Below are positions 32,577 to 51,348 of a stretch of DNA of 64,000 bases, piece by piece (positions within the stretch are counted from its first letter, which is position 1; each line of letters begins with the position of its first letter). This stretch comes from Actinopolyspora biskrensis (lineage in GTDB: Bacteria > Actinomycetota > Actinomycetes > Mycobacteriales > Pseudonocardiaceae). A program made the position numbers and the translations under genes. The DNA is taken from assembly GCF_013408175.1 (NCBI RefSeq), contig NZ_JACBYW010000001.1, positions 496,001 through 560,000 on the forward strand, read 5' to 3'. The notes beneath the pieces were generated by a model that had not been told where the DNA came from, did not search any database, and worked only from the letters and a program-made list of their open reading frames with translations.

Positions 32577-33824
32577 AGCTCACCCCCGCTTGCGCGGGGA
32601 AAGCCGGAGCGGCCACTGCTGTTCCCACCCTGGCCGGGACTCACCCCCGCTTGCGCGGGGAATCCGGGCAGCTCAATCGTCCGGATGGTCAAGGCACCGG
32701 CTCACCCCCGCTTGCGCGGGGAAACCCGTGGCGGGAGCTGTTGCAGGAGATGCTGCGGTGGCTCACCCCCGCTTGCGCGGGGAACCCCGGGCCGCGCTCA
32801 ACAGGATCGAGCTCGTGCTGGGCTCACCCCCGCTTGCGCGGGGAAACCAGCTCGATGATCCGCTCGGCGTAGTCCTTGCTAGGCTCACCCCCGCTTGCGC
32901 GGGGAAACCCGTAGCTCGTAAACAACGGCATCCCCGGATCCAGGCTCACCCCCGCTTGCGCGGGGAAACCCGTGCCGGCGGCGTCGGTGGTGTCGCCGGT
33001 CTGGGCTCACCCCCGCTTGCGCGGGGAAACCGTAATCCACCACCACATCGGACGACTCGGCGCGGGCTCACCCCCGCTTGCGCGGGGAAACCATCGACAC
33101 CATGCTCGTCACCGCTGGTGAGCGGGGCTCACCCCCGCTTGCGCGGGGAAACCGCTCGGAGTGCCGTAACCGAAAGCGAGGATGCCGGCTCACCCCCGCT
33201 TGCGCGGGGAAACCTGAAATACTGTTTTGATGCCGTCCCACAGGCCCGGCTCACCCCCGCTTGCGCGGGGAAACCCGGGTGGTTGCCCAGTCCTGCCGGG
33301 ACTCGGGGGGCTCACCCCCGCTTGCGCGGGGAATCCGTCTCGGTGTTGACGGTGATCGTGCACCGGCAGGGCTCACCCCCGCTTGCGCGGGGAAACCATC
33401 ACGACCCGCCAGGAGACCGAACGCCCGCGGGGCTCACCCCCGCTTGCGCGGGGAATCCGAGGCCCGCCCGGTGGGCGAGGACCAGGAACTCGGCTCACCC
33501 CCGCTTGCGCGGGGAATCCAAGGAATGGTGGGACGAAAACGGCCGGATGACGGGCTCACCCCCGCTTGCGCGGGGAATCCGGAGCACGGAAAACCGCTCA
33601 CGCCTCAACTACGGGCTCACCCCCGCTTGCGCGGGGAATCCCACGTACGTCGTGCCTACCTTCAGGGCGCGCCAGACTCACCCCCGCTTGCGCGGGGAAT
33701 CCTCCCGTCACAGCTCAAGCTGTGACGGAGTCGCCGGCTCACCCCCGCTTGCGCGGGGAATCCTCGCCAGAGCTGCCGGAGTTCCCGCCGCCGGTCGGCT
33801 CACCCCCGCTTGCGCGGGGAATCC
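32577..33824 (-). CRISPR. CRISPR array 1, type I-E, 21 repeats and 20 spacers
   Basis: Repeats of 28 bases recur at an exact 61-base period from 32577 to 33797, so all spacers are 33 bases. On the plus strand a repeat starts GGCTCACCCCCGC and ends GCGGGGAAACC or GCGGGGAATCC, with TTGC between. Read on the minus strand it matches the I-E pattern (GGATTCCCCGCGC...). The leader lies to the right; the leftmost repeat (32577) is degenerate, as expected for the distal end. The AATCC variant is confined to the leader-proximal part. Long plus-strand reading frames here are artefacts of the repeat. Confidence 0.97.
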
Positions 33825-34035
33825 CCTTTTTGTGCTGGGAAAATCAGAGTGGTTTACCGTTTTGTGATCTTGTGGGGTGCTTGCGTGTTGTGACGTCGGA
33901 AGCTGCGGGTAGGGGCATTGACGATCAGTCTGCCACCGATGGCGCGGTTGGTGTAGCAGCATGGCCGTCTGGTCTCGTAGCAGCATGTGAACACTGGCTG
34001 CTACGCGGATCTCGTGGCCGGGTGACTCGGGAACA
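33825..34035 (-). promoter_or_regulatory. Leader of CRISPR array 1
   Basis: It begins CCTTTTTGTGCTGGGAAAA next to the first repeat and continues GAGTGGTTTACCGTTTTGTG. The same segment borders arrays 2 and 3 on the same side, with about 200 bases of homology. It should hold the array promoter (minus direction) and the integration-anchoring sequence. Confidence 0.85.
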
Positions 34036-36519: not shown

Positions 36520-37773
36520 TCAGAAGTGCCGGTGGTCCTCCGCTAGCTGGTCGGGTTCGGGAGCGTAGGTGACGGCGACTCGGCTGTGGCGCTTCTCGAT
36601 GGTGGCGCCGTGATCGTGCTCGGTGCTTGTCGAGTCCGCGGGGTAGGCGATGAGGGTGGGCCGCTGCTCGCGGGCGTGTGCCCAGTGTCCGATCACCTCG
36701 ACCAGCCGGTCGGCCAGTGCGGCTGCGTTTGGTCCGTGGCCGATCGCGCCGAGTTCCCAGCGGGACCCTTCTTCGGTGCGGTGCCGGTGCTGGGTCACGT
36801 AGGCCAGCGACTCGCCGTCGGCGAGTGCGGGGGAGCGCATCGGTGCCAGTGGGGCGACCAGTTCGCGGGGCACGTTCGGGTGCGCGTTGATGCGGCAGGT
36901 GCGGCTGTCTTCGGCGGTCAGCCGCAGCCAGATCCCGTCGAAGGGCTCGTTGGCGACCATCATGTGCCCGGACCAGCGACTGGTGTGCGGGGTGTCGAGC
37001 ACGCCACGCAGCTTGGCGGAGTTGATCGGCTGGTCGCGGTCCCAGTGCAGGCTCACGGTGCCGTCGTCGGTGATCGGCGCGGTTCGTTCGCCTTCGGTGT
37101 CCCCGGTCAGGGGGACGAAGCCGCACAGCTCCACACCATCGGAGACGAGCTTTCCGCCTCGCTCGGCCAGCGCCACTGCGCGGGTTTGGCCGCGCCAGCG
37201 CAGCGGCAGCACCATCCGCCCGGTGGGGGTGAGCTGCTGCCACCAGCTCGGGGGAATGTCCCAGGGGGAGACGGTGGCGATGATCCGGTCGTACGGGCCG
37301 TTCTCGGGCGCGCCGTGGGTGCCGTCGCCGGTGACGACGTGTGTGTGGCCGTGTCCGGCAGCGTCGAGGTTGCGGCGTGCCTGCTCGGTCACCTCGGGGT
37401 CTGCGTCGATGGTGGTCACGAGTTGGGAGTCGCCGGTGAGTTCGGCCAGCAGTGCGGCGTTGTAGCCGGTGCCCGCGCCGATCTCGAGGACGCGGTGACC
37501 GGGGTGCACGTCGAGCTGGTCGAGCATCATCGCCACCACGAACGGGGCGCTGGCGCAGCTCAGGGAGGTGCCGTCGGCGAACCGGTGGGTGATGACTGCT
37601 TCGAACGGGTGGTAGGCGGTCTGGAGGTCGGCCTCGGGGACGAACTCGTGGCGGGGCATCTGCCGGAGCGCGCGTTCCACGCGCGGGTTCGTCGCGAAGC
37701 CGTCTCCTCGGACTTTCTCGACCATGCGGGCACGCAGTTCCTCGGCTGATGCGGCGGTGGCCTCGGTGTTCAT
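36520..37773 (-). CDS. FxLD-system methyltransferase 1 (PIMT-like)
   Basis: Protein of 417 aa. The N-terminal half is a protein-L-isoaspartate O-methyltransferase-like Rossmann domain: LRQMPRHEFVPEADLQTAY, motif I VLEIGAGTGYNAALLAEL, then IDADPEV and PYDRIIATVSPWDIPPSW. A C-terminal half of unknown fold follows, as in methyltransferases of FxLD lanthipeptide loci. By analogy to lanthipeptide PIMTs it would methylate Asp in the core peptide, allowing succinimide or isoaspartate formation. The ATG at 37773 has GGAAGGG upstream. A second copy lies at 45049. Confidence 0.82.
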   Translation of the reverse strand: MNTEATAASAEELRARMVEKVRGDGFATNPRVERALRQMPRHEFVPEADLQTAYHPFEAVITHRFADGTSLSCASAPFVVAMMLDQLDVHPGHRVLEIGAGTGYNAALLAELTGDSQLVTTIDADPEVTEQARRNLDAAGHGHTHVVTGDGTHGAPENGPYDRIIATVSPWDIPPSWWQQLTPTGRMVLPLRWRGQTRAVALAERGGKLVSDGVELCGFVPLTGDTEGERTAPITDDGTVSLHWDRDQPINSAKLRGVLDTPHTSRWSGHMMVANEPFDGIWLRLTAEDSRTCRINAHPNVPRELVAPLAPMRSPALADGESLAYVTQHRHRTEEGSRWELGAIGHGPNAAALADRLVEVIGHWAHAREQRPTLIAYPADSTSTEHDHGATIEKRHSRVAVTYAPEPDQLAEDHRHF

Positions 37774-37801
37774 CGTGTCCCTTCCTCGCTTCTTCGTCGT
37801 G

Positions 37802-38090
37802 TCAACCGTCCAGCAGCAGGCAGGCATCCCACCGCGTGACGGGGACCTGATCGGTGGTGGCGGTGTGCAGCGCCAGCCGGGCTCCTGCTTCTCCGGTGAG
37901 CAGGCCCGCCCCCGGTGAGGAGTGCTCGTCCAGCCGGTTCGTGAGTCGTTCGATCAGCATCGGCAGGTGCGCGCGGAGGCGCGGGGCGTGCTGGCTCATG
38001 CGCCAGGTGGTGTGCAGCAGCCCCGCCCACCCGTGGCAGAGGGAGACGTCTGTGAACTGGGCGAGCTGCCCGTTGTCGGCCCTGGTAACG
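37802..38090 (-). pseudogene. LanC cyclase remnant (C-terminal part only)
   Basis: The frame reads LAQFTDVSLCHGWAGLLHTT and ends VTRWDACLLLDG, parallel to GLCHGLAGIGQTAWRM and GWDACLLLA of the intact LanC at 40405. The zinc-binding CHG remains, but the upstream two thirds and the other zinc ligands are missing and no start codon fits. It marks a second, decayed lanthipeptide gene set. Confidence 0.65.
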
Positions 38091-40404: not shown

Positions 40405-41634
40405 TCAGGCCAGCAGCAGACAGGCGTCCCAGCCGGTGTGCGGATCCTGGTGGGTGCCGAGGGTGTGCAGGGCCAGCGCGATACCGGCGGATCCGTCGAG
40501 GAATTCGGGATCCGACGGGGGTGGTGACAGCCGTGCGAGGAGCCGCTGGCACAGGTGGGGCAGTTCGCCGGTGATCTCGCCGGTGTCGGCGTCGGCGGCC
40601 ATGCGCCAGGCGGTCTGGCCGATTCCGGCCAGGCCGTGGCACAGGCCGGTGTCGGTGACGCGGTCGAGCTGGTCGGGGTCACGCAGCAGGCCCAGCATCG
40701 CGGCCTCGGCGGTGCGTTGTCGGGCGGTGTCGCCGGTGGCGATCCCGGCGAGTTGCAGTGCGCGGGCCAGCCCGGCGGTGCCGTAGCACCAGCGCGGCGC
40801 TTGCCGCTGGGAGGGATCGATCTGTCCGGTCTCGACGTTGGCGCGGCTGATCACTCCGGGCCACCAGGGGCCCGGTTGTTGCCAGGTGTCGAGCCAGCTG
40901 CAGATCCGTTCGAGCGCGTCGCGCTGGCCGTCGACAGCCACACCGCGCAGCAGGGCCAGGGACAACAGCGCCAGCGGTGCGGCGATGCCGTGGGACAGGC
41001 CGATGTTGCCGTGCCCACCGGGGAAATCGGCGGTGATTTCTCCGTTGGGCGAGACCTCGGTCCACCATCCTGGTAGGCCGTCCGAGGTGGACGGCAGGGG
41101 TTCGGTCAGCCGGACGAGGTAGTTCAGCACGGCGCGGGTGATGGCGTGCCGGCGGTGGTGGCGCAGGTGGTAGGCGCCGAGCCCGGCCAGGCCCCGGAAG
41201 AGGTCGAACTCGGCCAGCAGGGGGCGCTGGCCCCGGTCGAGACGCGCGTGGGCCAGGGTGAGACGGGCCCGGGTCAGCTCGACGGTCTTGCTGTCCAGCG
41301 CGGCCAGCACGGGGGGACACCGGCGGGGATCGTCGGCGACCGAGCGGGTGAGAAACCCCAGCGCCGGTGCCCCGTAGAACAGGGTCGCGTTGCGGCCGGT
41401 GGAGACTTCCTCGCGTGCGGCCGCGGTCAGCCAGGCGCGGGCGGTGTCCCAGCTGCCGCGGCCGCTGCGGGCACGTTCGAGGTGCAGCAGCGCGAGGCCG
41501 ACCGCGCCGCCGAGCAGCGATTGCGGCCGAGTGCGGCCCACGCCGCCGTGCGGGTAGAGCGTGTGCGGGTCGGAAAGGGGCTCGGCGAGCTCATCGACCG
41601 CGGCGAGGACGTCGACGGTGTTGAGGGTGTTCAC
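40405..41634 (-). CDS. lanC: Lanthipeptide cyclase LanC
   Basis: Protein of 409 aa. Zinc ligands are recognisable: the first Cys in WCYGTAGLARAL and the Cys-His pair in GLCHGLAG. The catalytic-type His appears in LSHGIAAPLALL. LanC catalyses addition of Cys thiols to dehydroamino acids to form lanthionine rings. The GTG at 41634 overlaps the LanB stop, so the two are coupled. The end WDACLLLA parallels the remnant at 37802. Confidence 0.9.
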   Translation of the reverse strand: MNTLNTVDVLAAVDELAEPLSDPHTLYPHGGVGRTRPQSLLGGAVGLALLHLERARSGRGSWDTARAWLTAAAREEVSTGRNATLFYGAPALGFLTRSVADDPRRCPPVLAALDSKTVELTRARLTLAHARLDRGQRPLLAEFDLFRGLAGLGAYHLRHHRRHAITRAVLNYLVRLTEPLPSTSDGLPGWWTEVSPNGEITADFPGGHGNIGLSHGIAAPLALLSLALLRGVAVDGQRDALERICSWLDTWQQPGPWWPGVISRANVETGQIDPSQRQAPRWCYGTAGLARALQLAGIATGDTARQRTAEAAMLGLLRDPDQLDRVTDTGLCHGLAGIGQTAWRMAADADTGEITGELPHLCQRLLARLSPPPSDPEFLDGSAGIALALHTLGTHQDPHTGWDACLLLA

Positions 41635-44600
41635 GGGGCTCCCTGGGTGCGGGCGGTCCAGCTCAGAGCGGCGGCGCGGGCCAGGCGCAGGCACGTCCGC
41701 TCGGTCTCGGGCGCCACGCCGGTCATGCGCACGTGGTGCAGGTGCAGCAGGTCGGTCAGCACGCCGGCGGGTTCGCGGTGCCCGGACTCGGTCAGGGCGC
41801 TGCGGTAGGCGGTCAGCGCTGTCCGACGCCGGTGCCAGGCGGCCGCGAGGTCCTCGCCGCCCGGCAGGGCGCGTACCGCGGCCCAGTCCTCGCGTGGCTC
41901 GGCCAGCCGCAGTGCCTGCTCGCGCAGGACTCGCTCGGGGGCCGGGCCCGAGGGGGTGTGGGCGTGCTCGATCAGCCACCGCATTCCGGTGGCCGGATCG
42001 TCGTGGAACGAGCACACGAGGTGGACCATGCTCGCCGCGGTCAGAGCCAGCGGCCGAGCACCGTCGTGGTGCTCGACAGCGTGCAGCTGGGCGAGCACCG
42101 CGCTCGAATCGGCGGCGAAGACCGACTCGGCGGCCCGCATCGCCGTTCCGGCGCCGAACCGGCCGGTTTCGGGACAGTAGGTGTCGACCTGGGCGCGGCC
42201 TACGAGCCCCCGTTGGCGCAGCTGGGTGAGCCAGGTGTTGACCCTGGCCAGAGCAGGGGCGCTCTCGTCGTGCTGGCCGGTCCGGATCCGCAGCCGCAGG
42301 TGCGGATCCGGGTCGGCATAGCGCACGAACCACCACTCCGGCGCGGTGTCCCAGCTCGACAGCAGCTCGGGCAGATGATTCGTGAGCACCGTGTTCTGCC
42401 GGTGGGGGTGCCCGTAGAGCTTGAGGTAGAGCCAGGACTCGCTGCCGGGCAGGTGCCCGTGCTCGCGGTCGAGGTGCTGGGCCGACCACCTCGGCGGTGA
42501 GGCGGCCGTGGTGGTGGTCGCCAGCGGGATCACCACCTCGTGGGCGTGCCCGTCGAACCAGCCGAGCTCCTCGTCGGCCGGTGCTTCCCGCAGGGTGACT
42601 TCTCCCGTGCGTTCCAGCTCGGTGCGCAGCAGGGACACGTGCGCCGGAGTGTGCAGGTGCAACCGCATCCGCTGATCGCTGTCACCGAGAGAGACCAGCT
42701 CCGGCACGGCGAAGTGCTGCCGCCACGCTTGAAAGCCCTGCATCCAGTCCTGCCACGAGGCCCCGGAACCGGGAAGGTCGCTTGCTTCCAACCGCCACCG
42801 CGCTGGTGCCAGGATCGTGCGGCGGTAGCGCACTCGGGGCAGAAACGGCAGCCGAGCCGCCGCTGCCCACGAGAACGGCACGCACGGCCTGGCACGGGCG
42901 GTGCTGAGCTCGGTGACGAACCGCACGAGCGGATGCGCGTGGCCGACCATCTCCACCGCGTTGAAGCCCACCGGTTCGACCGGACGCTGCTGGGACAGCG
43001 ACAGCAGCACCAGCCGTTCGGCGTCGGCGGTGACGGCGAGATCGTCCAACGGCACCACGTCGTGACCCGACTCGCGGTGTTCGCCCAGCGAGACCACCGC
43101 GGGCAGCACCTGCCGACTGCGAGCGACGTTGTCGGTGCGCGCATACAGCGCCGGCGCCGAGATCTGGGCCGGGCGCGCGTTCGCACACACTGTGGGCAGT
43201 TCGGCACAGGCCGCGGCCGCACGCTGCTGGTCCTCGCCGTCGAGCAGGTCGAAAAAGCGGCCGGTGGTGGCTCCGGCCGAGCGTGAGACCCCGGCCAGAG
43301 CCAGCTCGAACTCGCCGCGATCAAGGGCGTCCCGCGTCCGGGCCCGCACCTGCACGCGCAGCTCGGTGTGCGGTTGGACCGCTGTCTCCCTCGTCCCCGT
43401 GCTCTCGAGACGACTGATCGTGGCCTCGTCGAGCACGATTTCGGTACGGCCTTCCCAGGCGGCTCGCTGGGCCAGGGCCAGCAACTCCGCATCCCGCTCC
43501 GTGGCCGGAGCGGACTCCGGTGCGTCCCACGGGCAGTCGCGGTAACCGGAGGGGAAACCGAGTCCGGTATCGGCCACCAGCTCGGCCACCGGCACGACCG
43601 CTCGTGGTCCGTACCGTTCCAGGAACCGACCGTGGTACTGCCGCCACGCCGGGGTTCCGAACGGCTCCGGAGCCAGCCGCACCAGCGCTGCGGCCGCGGC
43701 CTCGGCCTCCCGGGCCACCCCCTGCGGCAGGGCCAGGTCGCAGTCCAACCGCAGATCCACCCCGACCGGCCGCTGGCTCGGCGTCAGCCGGGTCATCGCC
43801 CGCGATAGCCCGGCGCGGCGCTGGTCTGCTCGGGTCGGTGCGCCAACGGTGTTGTGCCCCACCACGTCCTGGTGGATGGCACGGAGCTGGGCCACCTGCC
43901 CCGACACCCCGGCCGCCGTGTCGGCCTCGACCTCGTCCAGCGCCGCCACGACGTGGGCCAGGGGGTCGGTGACCGTCATGGGCGGCCGCAACTGGGTGAT
44001 CAGGAATCCCTGCTCGACAAGGGCCGCCAGCATCGGCTCCACCGCGGCGGCGGAGGCGTTGACCGCGGCCGCGACCTTCTCGGCCGCCTCGCACACCCGG
44101 ATCGGCGCGGCCACGGCCCGCATGATGGCCCGCACCACCCGGCTGTGGCGCACCGAGACTTCCCCCAGCCCGGTGGCCTCGTCGGAGCGGCGCTGCCAGC
44201 TCAGCACCATCCTGCCGTCGCGGACCACGGCCGCCGAGTTCGCCACGACCAACAGCCGGGAACACAGCTGCGGATCGGACTCCAGCTCCGCCAGCACCGC
44301 CGACAACCACTCCGCATCGACCCGCGCCACCGCCCGATGCCGGTCGCCCCAGCGCAGTGTCGTGGCGCGGCCGAACCGGGCGGCGGCCACCCCCGCGAAC
44401 AACCCGAACGGGGTCGCCCGAGTGGTGGCACGCAGCAGATACCGCATCATCGAACTCGTCGCGCGACGAACCTCGCGGACACGCTGCTCCTCGCCCGCGC
44501 AGATCGCACGCACACGACCGGCCAGCACCGGGCTGGCCAGCTCCACGGCCACCGCGAACTCCTCAACCGCCCACACCCGCCGTAACCACGAACACCACTG

Positions 44601-44714
44601 CCGCACGTGCGCATCCGTACTTCCGGTCAGATCCGGCCAGGCGACGCTGTCCACAGCGTGGGGAAGTACTGCCGCCCGAACGAGAGCGGCGTCAACCATC
44701 CTGTACAACTGCAC
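41631..44714 (-). CDS. lanB: Class I lanthipeptide dehydratase LanB
   Basis: About 1027 aa, full length for the family. The N-terminal two thirds match the glutamylation domain (RRATSSMMRYLLRATTRATPFGLFAGVAAA is a well-conserved LanB segment, quoted in part). The C-terminal elimination domain follows (WLYLKLYGHPHRQNTVLTNHL, EWWFVRYADPDPHLRLRIR). It dehydrates Ser/Thr in the precursor core using glutamyl-tRNA. The GTG at 44714 or the ATG at 44699 may be the start; neither has a strong ribosome-binding site. The two precursor genes lie just upstream. Confidence 0.9.
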   Translation of the reverse strand: MQLYRMVDAALVRAAVLPHAVDSVAWPDLTGSTDAHVRQWCSWLRRVWAVEEFAVAVELASPVLAGRVRAICAGEEQRVREVRRATSSMMRYLLRATTRATPFGLFAGVAAARFGRATTLRWGDRHRAVARVDAEWLSAVLAELESDPQLCSRLLVVANSAAVVRDGRMVLSWQRRSDEATGLGEVSVRHSRVVRAIMRAVAAPIRVCEAAEKVAAAVNASAAAVEPMLAALVEQGFLITQLRPPMTVTDPLAHVVAALDEVEADTAAGVSGQVAQLRAIHQDVVGHNTVGAPTRADQRRAGLSRAMTRLTPSQRPVGVDLRLDCDLALPQGVAREAEAAAAALVRLAPEPFGTPAWRQYHGRFLERYGPRAVVPVAELVADTGLGFPSGYRDCPWDAPESAPATERDAELLALAQRAAWEGRTEIVLDEATISRLESTGTRETAVQPHTELRVQVRARTRDALDRGEFELALAGVSRSAGATTGRFFDLLDGEDQQRAAAACAELPTVCANARPAQISAPALYARTDNVARSRQVLPAVVSLGEHRESGHDVVPLDDLAVTADAERLVLLSLSQQRPVEPVGFNAVEMVGHAHPLVRFVTELSTARARPCVPFSWAAAARLPFLPRVRYRRTILAPARWRLEASDLPGSGASWQDWMQGFQAWRQHFAVPELVSLGDSDQRMRLHLHTPAHVSLLRTELERTGEVTLREAPADEELGWFDGHAHEVVIPLATTTTAASPPRWSAQHLDREHGHLPGSESWLYLKLYGHPHRQNTVLTNHLPELLSSWDTAPEWWFVRYADPDPHLRLRIRTGQHDESAPALARVNTWLTQLRQRGLVGRAQVDTYCPETGRFGAGTAMRAAESVFAADSSAVLAQLHAVEHHDGARPLALTAASMVHLVCSFHDDPATGMRWLIEHAHTPSGPAPERVLREQALRLAEPREDWAAVRALPGGEDLAAAWHRRRTALTAYRSALTESGHREPAGVLTDLLHLHHVRMTGVAPETERTCLRLARAAALSWTARTQGAP

Positions 44715-44793: not shown

Positions 44794-45015
44794 TTACGGG
44801 CAGGTCTGCATGCAGGCCGACTCGCAAGTTTGGCCGCATCCGTCATCGGTGGGCCGCATGAGCTCCTCGACGATCGGACCGGACTCCGCGAAGCGGATAT
44901 CGAGGTCGAAGTCCTCGACAGCAGGAGACTCGGCCCCCACATCGGCGTTGGCCTCGGCCACTCCCGGCACGGTGACCTCGGAGTCGGTGGAAACAGTCAA
45001 CACAACCTCCATCAT
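44794..45015 (-). CDS. FxLD lanthipeptide precursor 1
   Basis: Up to 73 aa. The leader contains DFDLDIRF (the FxLD motif) and ends before a core of about 18 residues, TDDGCGQTCESACMQTCP, with four Cys and several Ser/Thr for ring formation. GGAGG at 45006-45010 lies inside the ATG frame, and a TTG at 45000 is 5 bases after it, so the true start may be TTG and the peptide about 68 aa. It sits between methyltransferase 2 and LanB. Confidence 0.85.
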   Translation of the reverse strand: MMEVVLTVSTDSEVTVPGVAEANADVGAESPAVEDFDLDIRFAESGPIVEELMRPTDDGCGQTCESACMQTCP

Positions 45016-45048: not shown

Positions 45049-46620
45049 TCAGAGCTCCCGCGCTCCCGGCCAGGAGACGACGACACGCGTGTGCTTCTTC
45101 TCGATGACGCGTCCCCTGGGGAGTTCACTGGTCGGCCGCGTAGCGGGAAACACCTCGATACGCGCGCCGGGACCGCCGCGCAGATCGCGATCGAAGCGCC
45201 GCAACAGCTCGACGTAGTCCTCGGCCACAGCCTCTGCCTCGGGCCCGTGCGCGTACACGCCGTTCTCGAACGTGTCGCCGCCCTCGAGAGGCCGTTTCGT
45301 GCGATAGGCAAAAGACGCTCCGCGGATCAGCGTCGGCACGCCCCGCTGAGCCGACCGAGTTACGAGACCGCGTTCGATCGCGTCTTGCCGTGCCGCGAGC
45401 AGACCGAACACCGGCGCTTGCGTCGCGATCCAAAAGTGCGTCTCATCGGGGTAGCTGAATTCGACGTCCGGCCAACGCTCCAATCGTGGCTGCTGCAACG
45501 ACTTCTGCAATCCGGTGACGTCGAGCAGCTGCTCTTCCTCGACCCGCAGCGCCACCTCGGACCCGTCGAGCGGGATCAGGCGTTCCTCGCGGGCGCTGGC
45601 ACCCTGCATCGGAACGAACCCGCACAGGCGATATCCCGTGCTGACCAGGTGGTCCTCGTCGTGGGCGAACACCACCGACCGAGTCAGCCCCCGCATCCGC
45701 AGCGGGACCACGATCCGCCCGCCCGGCGCGAGCTGCTCGATCCAGGCCGGGGGGATGTCCCACGCGCCGGCCGTGACGATGATCCGGTCGTACGGCGCCT
45801 CCGGCGCATGTCCGTGCTCGGCGTCCCCGTGCACCACCCTGACCCGCTCGTAGCCGGCAGTCTGCAGGCAGCTGCGGGCACGTTCGACGATGTCGCCATC
45901 GATGTCGAGCGAGACGACCGTGCCGGCCTCGCCCACGAGTTCGGCGAGCAGGGCGGCGTTGTAGCCACCGCTGCCGACCTCCAGAACCCGCATTCCCGGT
46001 TGGAGCTGAGCCTGCTCCAGCATCGTGACCTGGATGTGGGTGGCCGACAGCGAGCTGGTGGCCAACCCCTGCTCGTCCCGCTTGGTCACCACAGCCTGGT
46101 TCGCCGCATACACGTCCTCCAGCGACTCGCCCGGTGCGAACAGGTGCCGCGGCACCGTTCGCAGCGCTTCCGCGACCGAATCACTATGCAGGTCGCCCCA
46201 GTCCTGCAGCTGGCGCACCATCGCCTCGCGAAGATCCTGCGCCTGATCTCTTTGTGTAGTCACGTGATCACTCTCCCAGTGCTGTTCGGTCACGAGTCTG
46301 TCGACTCGATGCTGCGGTTGTTCCGCGTGGTCGGTGAGGAGTTCGGTGCAGGCGCGGGCGAGGGGCACGGCTGCGGCGGGGCCGACGATGAGGTGGAGGG
46401 CGTTGTCTCGGTGGAGGCGTCCGAGTACCGCGGGGTGGTCGCGCGGTGCGGTGTCGTTGATGGCGTGGTGGTCGGCCAGGGTCAGGCGTAGTCGGGTGAG
46501 GCAGTGGGTGACCGTGACGACGTTGTCGCTGCCGCCGAGCAGGGGCAGCAGGTCGGTGGTGGTGCGGGCGGAGGCGCGCTGCACCCCCGTCCCGTGGTGT
46601 GCGTAGCCGCGGGTAGGCAT
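45049..46620 (-). CDS. PTS EIIB-like domain in frame with FxLD methyltransferase 2
   Basis: Protein of 523 aa from the ATG at 46620 (GGAGG upstream). Residues about 21-97 match the glucose-type PTS EIIB domain: LLGGSDNVVTVTHCLTRLRL with the phospho-acceptor Cys at 40, later NALHLIVGP. From about 120 onward a PIMT-like methyltransferase follows, with SAM motif I VLEVGSGGYNAALL (212-) and PYDRIIVTAGAWDIPPAW, then the FxLD-type C-terminal part. No stop separates the parts. A GTG at 46263 with GGGAG upstream could alternatively start a separate 404-aa methyltransferase, the size of copy 1. Confidence 0.8.
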   Translation of the reverse strand: MPTRGYAHHGTGVQRASARTTTDLLPLLGGSDNVVTVTHCLTRLRLTLADHHAINDTAPRDHPAVLGRLHRDNALHLIVGPAAAVPLARACTELLTDHAEQPQHRVDRLVTEQHWESDHVTTQRDQAQDLREAMVRQLQDWGDLHSDSVAEALRTVPRHLFAPGESLEDVYAANQAVVTKRDEQGLATSSLSATHIQVTMLEQAQLQPGMRVLEVGSGGYNAALLAELVGEAGTVVSLDIDGDIVERARSCLQTAGYERVRVVHGDAEHGHAPEAPYDRIIVTAGAWDIPPAWIEQLAPGGRIVVPLRMRGLTRSVVFAHDEDHLVSTGYRLCGFVPMQGASAREERLIPLDGSEVALRVEEEQLLDVTGLQKSLQQPRLERWPDVEFSYPDETHFWIATQAPVFGLLAARQDAIERGLVTRSAQRGVPTLIRGASFAYRTKRPLEGGDTFENGVYAHGPEAEAVAEDYVELLRRFDRDLRGGPGARIEVFPATRPTSELPRGRVIEKKHTRVVVSWPGAREL

Positions 46621-46683
46621 CCCCACCTCCGTGGCCGAGAAGACGGGGGCTGGACAGTGCCTACCCCGGGGCAGGGAAAGTGC

Positions 46684-46839
46684 TCAGGCAGTCGTGGTGC
46701 AGGCCGACTTTTCGCAGGTGTGGTCACACCCGTCGTCGGTCTGGCAGGCCATTTCCCGAAACGGAACCTCTTCGGTCGTGACCTGCACATCCAGCTCGAA
46801 CACGTCCTCGACCGTCTCGCCCGCGAGTGCTGCGGCCAT
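46684..46839 (-). CDS. FxLD lanthipeptide precursor 2 (51 aa)
   Basis: The ATG at 46839 follows AGGAAGAGG. The leader has VFELDVQV, the FxLD motif, and ends at FREMA. The core CQTDDGCDHTCEKSACTTTA holds four Cys plus Ser/Thr and shares TDDGC and spaced TC/AC with precursor 1. The Asp-Gly pair is the expected target for a PIMT-like enzyme. It is too short for usual ORF cutoffs. A 13-bp inverted repeat lies upstream. Confidence 0.85.
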   Translation of the reverse strand: MAAALAGETVEDVFELDVQVTTEEVPFREMACQTDDGCDHTCEKSACTTTA

Positions 46840-50949: not shown

Positions 50950-51348
50950 AGTCGTCTCGTGTGAGCGGGGAAACCCAGCAGCATGCGGGCCTGCTCGGCC
51001 GCGGCGGTCAGCCACGGCTCACCCCCGCTCGCGCGGGGACTTCCTCACGCACGCGCCCCATCTCACACCCCCAGAGGGCTCACCCCCGCTAGCGCGGGGA
51101 CTTCACAACCTTCGACCACGCCTCACTACCAGGCTGCGGCTCACCCCCGCTCGCGCGGGGACTTCGCATGGGCAAGATCCAGCCCAAGATCAGTTGGGGG
51201 CTCACCCCCGCTCGCGCGGGGACTTCCGAAGATGATCGCTCCCGCCGGCGGTGGGCGCGGGCTCACCCCCGCTCGCGCGGGGACTTCAAGAGCAACCCGC
51301 ATCCGGGCGGACTCGACGAGGGCTCACCCCCGCTCGCGCGGGGACTTC
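50950..51348 (-). CRISPR. CRISPR array 2, type I-E, 6 repeats plus a degenerate end
   Basis: Repeats of 28 bases start at 51016, 51077, 51138, 51199, 51260 and 51321, again at a 61-base period. They read GGCTCACCCCCGC, a TCGC loop, GCGGGGACTTC, with one TAGC loop variant at 51077. This differs from array 1 in the loop and the last four bases. A weak remnant (GTGAGCGGGGAAACC) lies near 50960-50976 at the distal end. The leader is on the right, as in the other arrays. Confidence 0.93.

Follow-up and report, generated by a model that had tools for sequence, protein, structure and literature searches.

A PTS EIIB-like domain in one open frame with an FxLD lanthipeptide methyltransferase of Actinopolyspora biskrensis, probably by recent capture of an orphan gene

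In the 64,000-nucleotide stretch of the Actinopolyspora biskrensis genome analyzed here (the window), a PTS EIIB domain is followed in a single open frame by a lanthipeptide methyltransferase, as the initial annotation had recognized: a PF00367 match precedes a TIGR04364 match, and the window genome has no stop codon between the two domains. It is very probable that an orphan EIIB gene was recently captured upstream of fxlM and that the two are joined through lack of a single stop, with the EIIB part a passenger and the methyltransferase made from its own GTG. The join of the domains is real, but it is probably recent and non-functional. A domain pair in frame in one genome can hint at a regulatory connection for which related genomes give no support; here, a single base determines whether the two frames are separate or joined.

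The identity of the N-terminal domain is secure. PF00367 (PTS_EIIB) matches residues 25-57 of the whole protein at E 3e-11, and the search of the N-terminal part that had been proposed as a check scores well above background, with E 3.7e-12 and 45.9 bits on the first 113 residues alone against a cut-off of 27 bits. The CxTRLR loop of EIIB is intact and the later strand with its VGP motif is also present; taken with the score, these features mean that the match is not due to chance. Other models agree in extent, if not always in score: NCBIfam IIBC models extend the match to residue 84-105, far below their cut-offs, as expected when one domain is measured against thresholds for whole proteins, while the EIIB_glc domain model TIGR00826 reaches E 1.2e-6 and 28.7 bits, under its cut-off of 45.75, and PDB chain 3ipj aligns with residues 24-83 (E 5e-6). 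AlphaFold modeling of the isolated 111-residue N-terminal part returned a poor model, with a mean pLDDT of 47.8, that does not enter the argument. The phospho-acceptor cysteine is conserved in all six of the aligned EIIB sequences, and in the fusion it is Cys40, presumably the phosphorylated residue, as throughout the EIIB family.

The full open frame spans 525 codons of the minus strand (45049-46626), and its best start is an ATG at 46620-46618 behind a GGAGG at 46630-46626, so that the earlier coordinates and the numbering of Cys40 are both right (Table 1). With the EIIB core intact and this start in frame, the sequence indicates that a fusion protein can be made. A second start lies within the same frame, a GTG at 46263-46261 with GGGAG upstream, and the suggestion that it could yield a separate methyltransferase holds. 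From there the protein is an ordinary member of its family, matching TIGR04364 (methyltransferase, FxLD system) over its full length (residues 129-519, E 6e-175, 582 bits, cut-off 320) and Pfam PCMT at E 1.5e-45. Its setting is a class I lanthipeptide cluster comprising LanB, LanC, two PIMT-like methyltransferases, and two FxLD precursors that flank the fused gene and match TIGR04363 at E 8.5e-18 and 7.4e-14. The second methyltransferase, at the opposite end of the cluster, shares 37% identity with the first along 407 residues. CRISPR-like arrays lie on either side of the cluster, at 51002-51348 and 32637-33825, with 6 and ~20 repeats, a 61-base spacing and a nearly identical unit in both.

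Table 1. Features of the fused gene, its cluster and the orphan EIIB cassettes (positions in the window unless a locus is given)
Feature	Position	Strand	Basis or remark
Fused open frame, EIIB domain and FxLD methyltransferase	45049..46620	-	ATG start, GGAGG upstream; 523 aa
Codon of EIIB phospho-acceptor Cys	46501..46503	-	Cys40 counting from the ATG; Cys42 when all 525 codons of the frame are numbered
Captured EIIB-like piece, residues 21-103	46318..46566	-	Homologous to orphan EIIB genes of related genomes
CAG codon (Gln115); TAG in sister genome G001	46282..46284	-	Genome comparison
Methyltransferase leader with GGGAG ribosome-binding site	46264..46281	-	Common to A. mortivallis, there without EIIB
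FxLD methyltransferase (fxlM / LanSA-type PIMT homologue) from its own GTG	45049..46263	-	Profile matches
FxLD lanthipeptide precursor, TDDGC in core	46684..46839	-	TIGR04363
Second FxLD lanthipeptide precursor, TDDGC in core	44794..45015	-	TIGR04363
Lantibiotic dehydratase LanB	41631..44714	-	PF04738, PF14028
LanC-like cyclase	40405..41670	-	PF05147
Second PIMT-like methyltransferase of the cluster	36520..37827	-	PF01135
GT2/APH/P-loop/130-aa/EIIB cassettes	L041:3362-7876, L040:1947-6584, L042:7767-12281, L064:5650-10141
Degraded cassette	L065:8131-10154		Genome G005

Comparison with the closest genomes illustrates how slight the join is. In a sister species (G001), whose sequence is 97% identical, a TAG stands where the window has CAG (GAATAG versus GAACAG); the GTG that both genomes share, preceded by GGGAG, lies 18 bases downstream. 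The sister genome also carries 11 bases that are absent from the window, between the ATG with its GGAGG and the EIIB core, at a site where orphan EIIB genes have 12. Because of this 11-base indel, the sister's ATG behind GGAGG is out of the EIIB frame, which leaves its EIIB with a single in-frame ATG, GTG or TTG, namely a GTG within the first helix of the domain. Further afield, the leader and GTG of the A. mortivallis orthologue (84%) match those of the window, at 81.5% DNA identity over 103 bases, with no EIIB present; EIIB is likewise absent upstream of fxlM in A. xinjiangensis, where the orthologue stands at 86%. Since the same leader and GTG occur in A. mortivallis without the EIIB, residues ~112-121 of the fusion correspond to leader sequence read as protein.

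The A. mortivallis leader also bears on the age of the open frame. The decisive base at the stop position is C there, so parsimony favors a stop gained in the sister species over one lost in the window, and the open frame may accordingly be as old as the EIIB capture, although a single position in so short an alignment counts for little. The same base speaks to the idea that a base-call or assembly error opens the frame and that the true codon is TAG. A single base does decide the matter, but the C in A. mortivallis and the neighboring 11-base indel, a real divergence between the two genomes, make such an error extremely unlikely.

Might the locus instead encode two useful proteins, a small EIIB translationally coupled to fxlM, separated by the TAG in the sister species and joined in the window? 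The TAG lies at a typical coupling distance from the fxlM GTG, and orphan EIIB genes occur elsewhere as the coupled last genes of a cassette. We nonetheless regard this as improbable: the sister's EIIB is left with a start inside its first helix and an ATG out of frame, and the EIIB part accumulates amino-acid changes in a manner that does not resemble a maintained gene. Not counting the stop, the EIIB part (101 codons) differs between the window genome and its sister by 7 nonsynonymous changes and 1 synonymous, compared with 5.5 and 11.5 in the methyltransferase (405 codons) and 32 and 30 in lanB. The contrast gives a Fisher p of 0.03 against the methyltransferase, its counts rounded to 6 and 12, and of 0.07 against lanB. 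With eight changes in all, neutrality of the EIIB part is not rejected (p 0.33) and weak constraint is compatible too (omega 0.39, p 0.04), but the test rejects strong constraint (p 0.0015 at omega 0.16). High omega is not peculiar to the EIIB part, as two other genes of the cluster stand at 0.71 and 0.67, while the regulator is at 0.16 and lanC at 0.41. Among cassette EIIB genes, one pair looks constrained (G499 versus G009, 0.43) and another does not (G008 versus G009, 0.97). Two sister genomes are thin evidence, and these substitution counts are small.

A broader survey of FxLD methyltransferases, which the initial annotation had suggested in search of the same fusion, turned up no second one among the matches listed. 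Searches covered 100 relatives and 394 genomes of the class, with a few genomes in both; the class search scored at most three candidates per genome, and all counts are of the best matches listed, so that less common fusions could have escaped notice. At 180 bits or more there were 73 and 143 of these, respectively, 3 of them shared, and only the window's own alignment ran open from EIIB to the end without a stop; that of the sister genome begins at residue 18 and contains one TAG. Alignments starting at or before query residue 60 came, among the matches listed, from the window genome (G000), G001, G039 and G031 in the search of relatives and from G000, G383 and G291 in the class search, the last two beginning only at residues 57 and 58, by which point almost the whole EIIB motif has been passed. 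As candidates for N-terminally extended relatives, G039 (from residue 7) and G031 (from 48) were set aside when the EIIB profile found none in either. Applied to 34 fetched methyltransferase loci, 32 of them distinct owing to two duplicate pairs, the profile detected EIIB at the loci of the window and its sister (L008 and L009) and not upstream of the methyltransferase in the other 30, with a marginal match at L033 (E 0.031) left out of the count. Within the genus, four of ten genomes examined hold an orthologous methyltransferase (at least 84%), with EIIB upstream in two and joined in one. Among plasmids, 449 records matched the fused protein, the best rows among the 20 listed starting at query residue 85 or later; no match to the EIIB part was found in viral contigs. 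Homologues that start at the internal GTG, with the upstream part not conserved, had been named as a finding that would tell against the fusion, and this is largely the pattern observed, the sister genome sharing the EIIB part in broken form.

These data weigh heavily on the proposal that the EIIB domain takes part in peptide maturation or in its control by sugar state. As a functional fusion, the EIIB would receive a phosphate on Cys40 from the host EIIA and would switch or dock the methyltransferase, tying peptide maturation to sugar supply. The intact CxTRLR loop, the open frame with its good start and the host's PTS genes are all in keeping with this: the genome encodes EIIA, EIIB and EIIC (L001) together with three HPr-type matches, so that phosphorylation of the fusion EIIB by the host is possible in principle. 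Set against it are a fusion present in one of ten genus genomes examined and broken in the sister, with no other among the matches listed, and a rapidly changing EIIB part; we consider a working fusion very unlikely, and the proposed role finds no support in the 30 of 32 loci that lack EIIB, the sister's stop and frame break, or the 7 changes against 1. Equally doubtful is a variant in which the captured EIIB now serves as a phospho-sensor or docking module in one lineage, with a long sugar-responsive form made beside a short form from the internal GTG; were that so, the rapid amino-acid change would reflect adaptation and not decay. We know of no earlier link between PTS phosphorylation and RiPP maturation, our search of open-access literature listings found no report of EIIB with lanthipeptides or other RiPPs, including an EIIB-methyltransferase fusion, and a fusion that works would be the first such link.

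Where, then, did the EIIB come from? Among the matches listed from 249 family genomes, those to orphan EIIB at 58% or more fall in G009, G007, G008, G499, the window genome, its sister and, partially, G005. In G007, G008, G009 and G499 the gene is the last of a cassette encoding a GT2 glycosyltransferase, an APH-like kinase, a P-loop protein, a 130-aa protein and EIIB, the final two overlapping by ATGA. All six EIIB proteins tested from this group of genomes exceed the PF00367 cut-off, and a tblastn alignment of the fusion with one cassette (L040) covers residues 21-103 at 62.7%, while over 114 bases the EIIB remnant of G005 and the window EIIB agree at 97.4%. EIIB is the only cassette gene in the window. 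The cassette adjoins an FxLD cluster in just one of five carriers (G008), and the methyltransferase matches of G009 include none stronger than E 5.7e-28. Orphan EIIB on plasmids was limited to best places below 60%, those listed being mostly PTS IIBC, and the cassette P-loop protein gave nothing in 394 class genomes, a set without a known carrier as positive control. In the degraded cassette of G005 (L065:9462-10322), the 130-aa gene and the EIIB run in one open frame across the shared ACCACCGAC; this is a second, independent accidental join of EIIB. No PTS transporter was seen in the cassette, which places its EIIB in a non-transport setting, and this rare GT2/APH/P-loop/EIIB assembly, with an EIIB lacking an adjoining transporter, may prove of more interest than the fusion itself.

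Accidental capture, our preferred explanation, would run as follows. Part of an orphan EIIB gene would have landed just upstream of fxlM in the common ancestor of the window genome and its sister. In the window genome, where the would-be TAG carries a C, the EIIB frame runs on into fxlM, so that the methyltransferase leader and ribosome-binding site would enter the protein as a linker. What functions is most likely an ordinary PIMT-like methyltransferase from the internal GTG, which, by analogy with the known family, would modify the conserved Asp in the TDDGC motif of the precursors; such methylation would lead to aspartimide or isoAsp, as in other members of the family (PMC13001092, PMC7268733). 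The EIIB part, where made, would be a passenger, decaying or loosely maintained.

Known systems frame both halves of the protein. The EIIB shares its PF00367 profile, CxTRLR loop and VGP motif with glucose/GlcNAc-type PTS EIIB, exemplified by the host's own (C1:270242), yet is just 29% identical to the latter and has no EIIA or EIIC adjoining; profile scans of neighboring genes and the PF00367 search found no EIIC partner in or beside the fusion, and EIIC only at the host EIIB. The methyltransferase resembles FxLD-system PIMT-like enzymes (TIGR04364; LanSA, e.g. OlvSA) in its full-length match and in the adjoining LanB, LanC and two TIGR04363 precursors, whose cores contain TDDGC, in line with the TXDGC motif that the excerpted review describes for the LanSA group (PMC13001092). 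A regular expression for W...G.P found no match in the fused protein, a motif that the same excerpts ascribe to most members, not all (PMC13001092). What sets the window protein apart from these enzymes is its 121 extra N-terminal residues with the EIIB domain. Fusions of LanSA methyltransferases to glutamyl lyase (elimination) domains are known, as excerpts of two papers attest (PMC7268733, PMC13001092), and these likewise join a PIMT of the same group to another domain; the glutamyl lyase partner, however, acts in lanthipeptide chemistry and recurs, whereas the EIIB partner is seen once.
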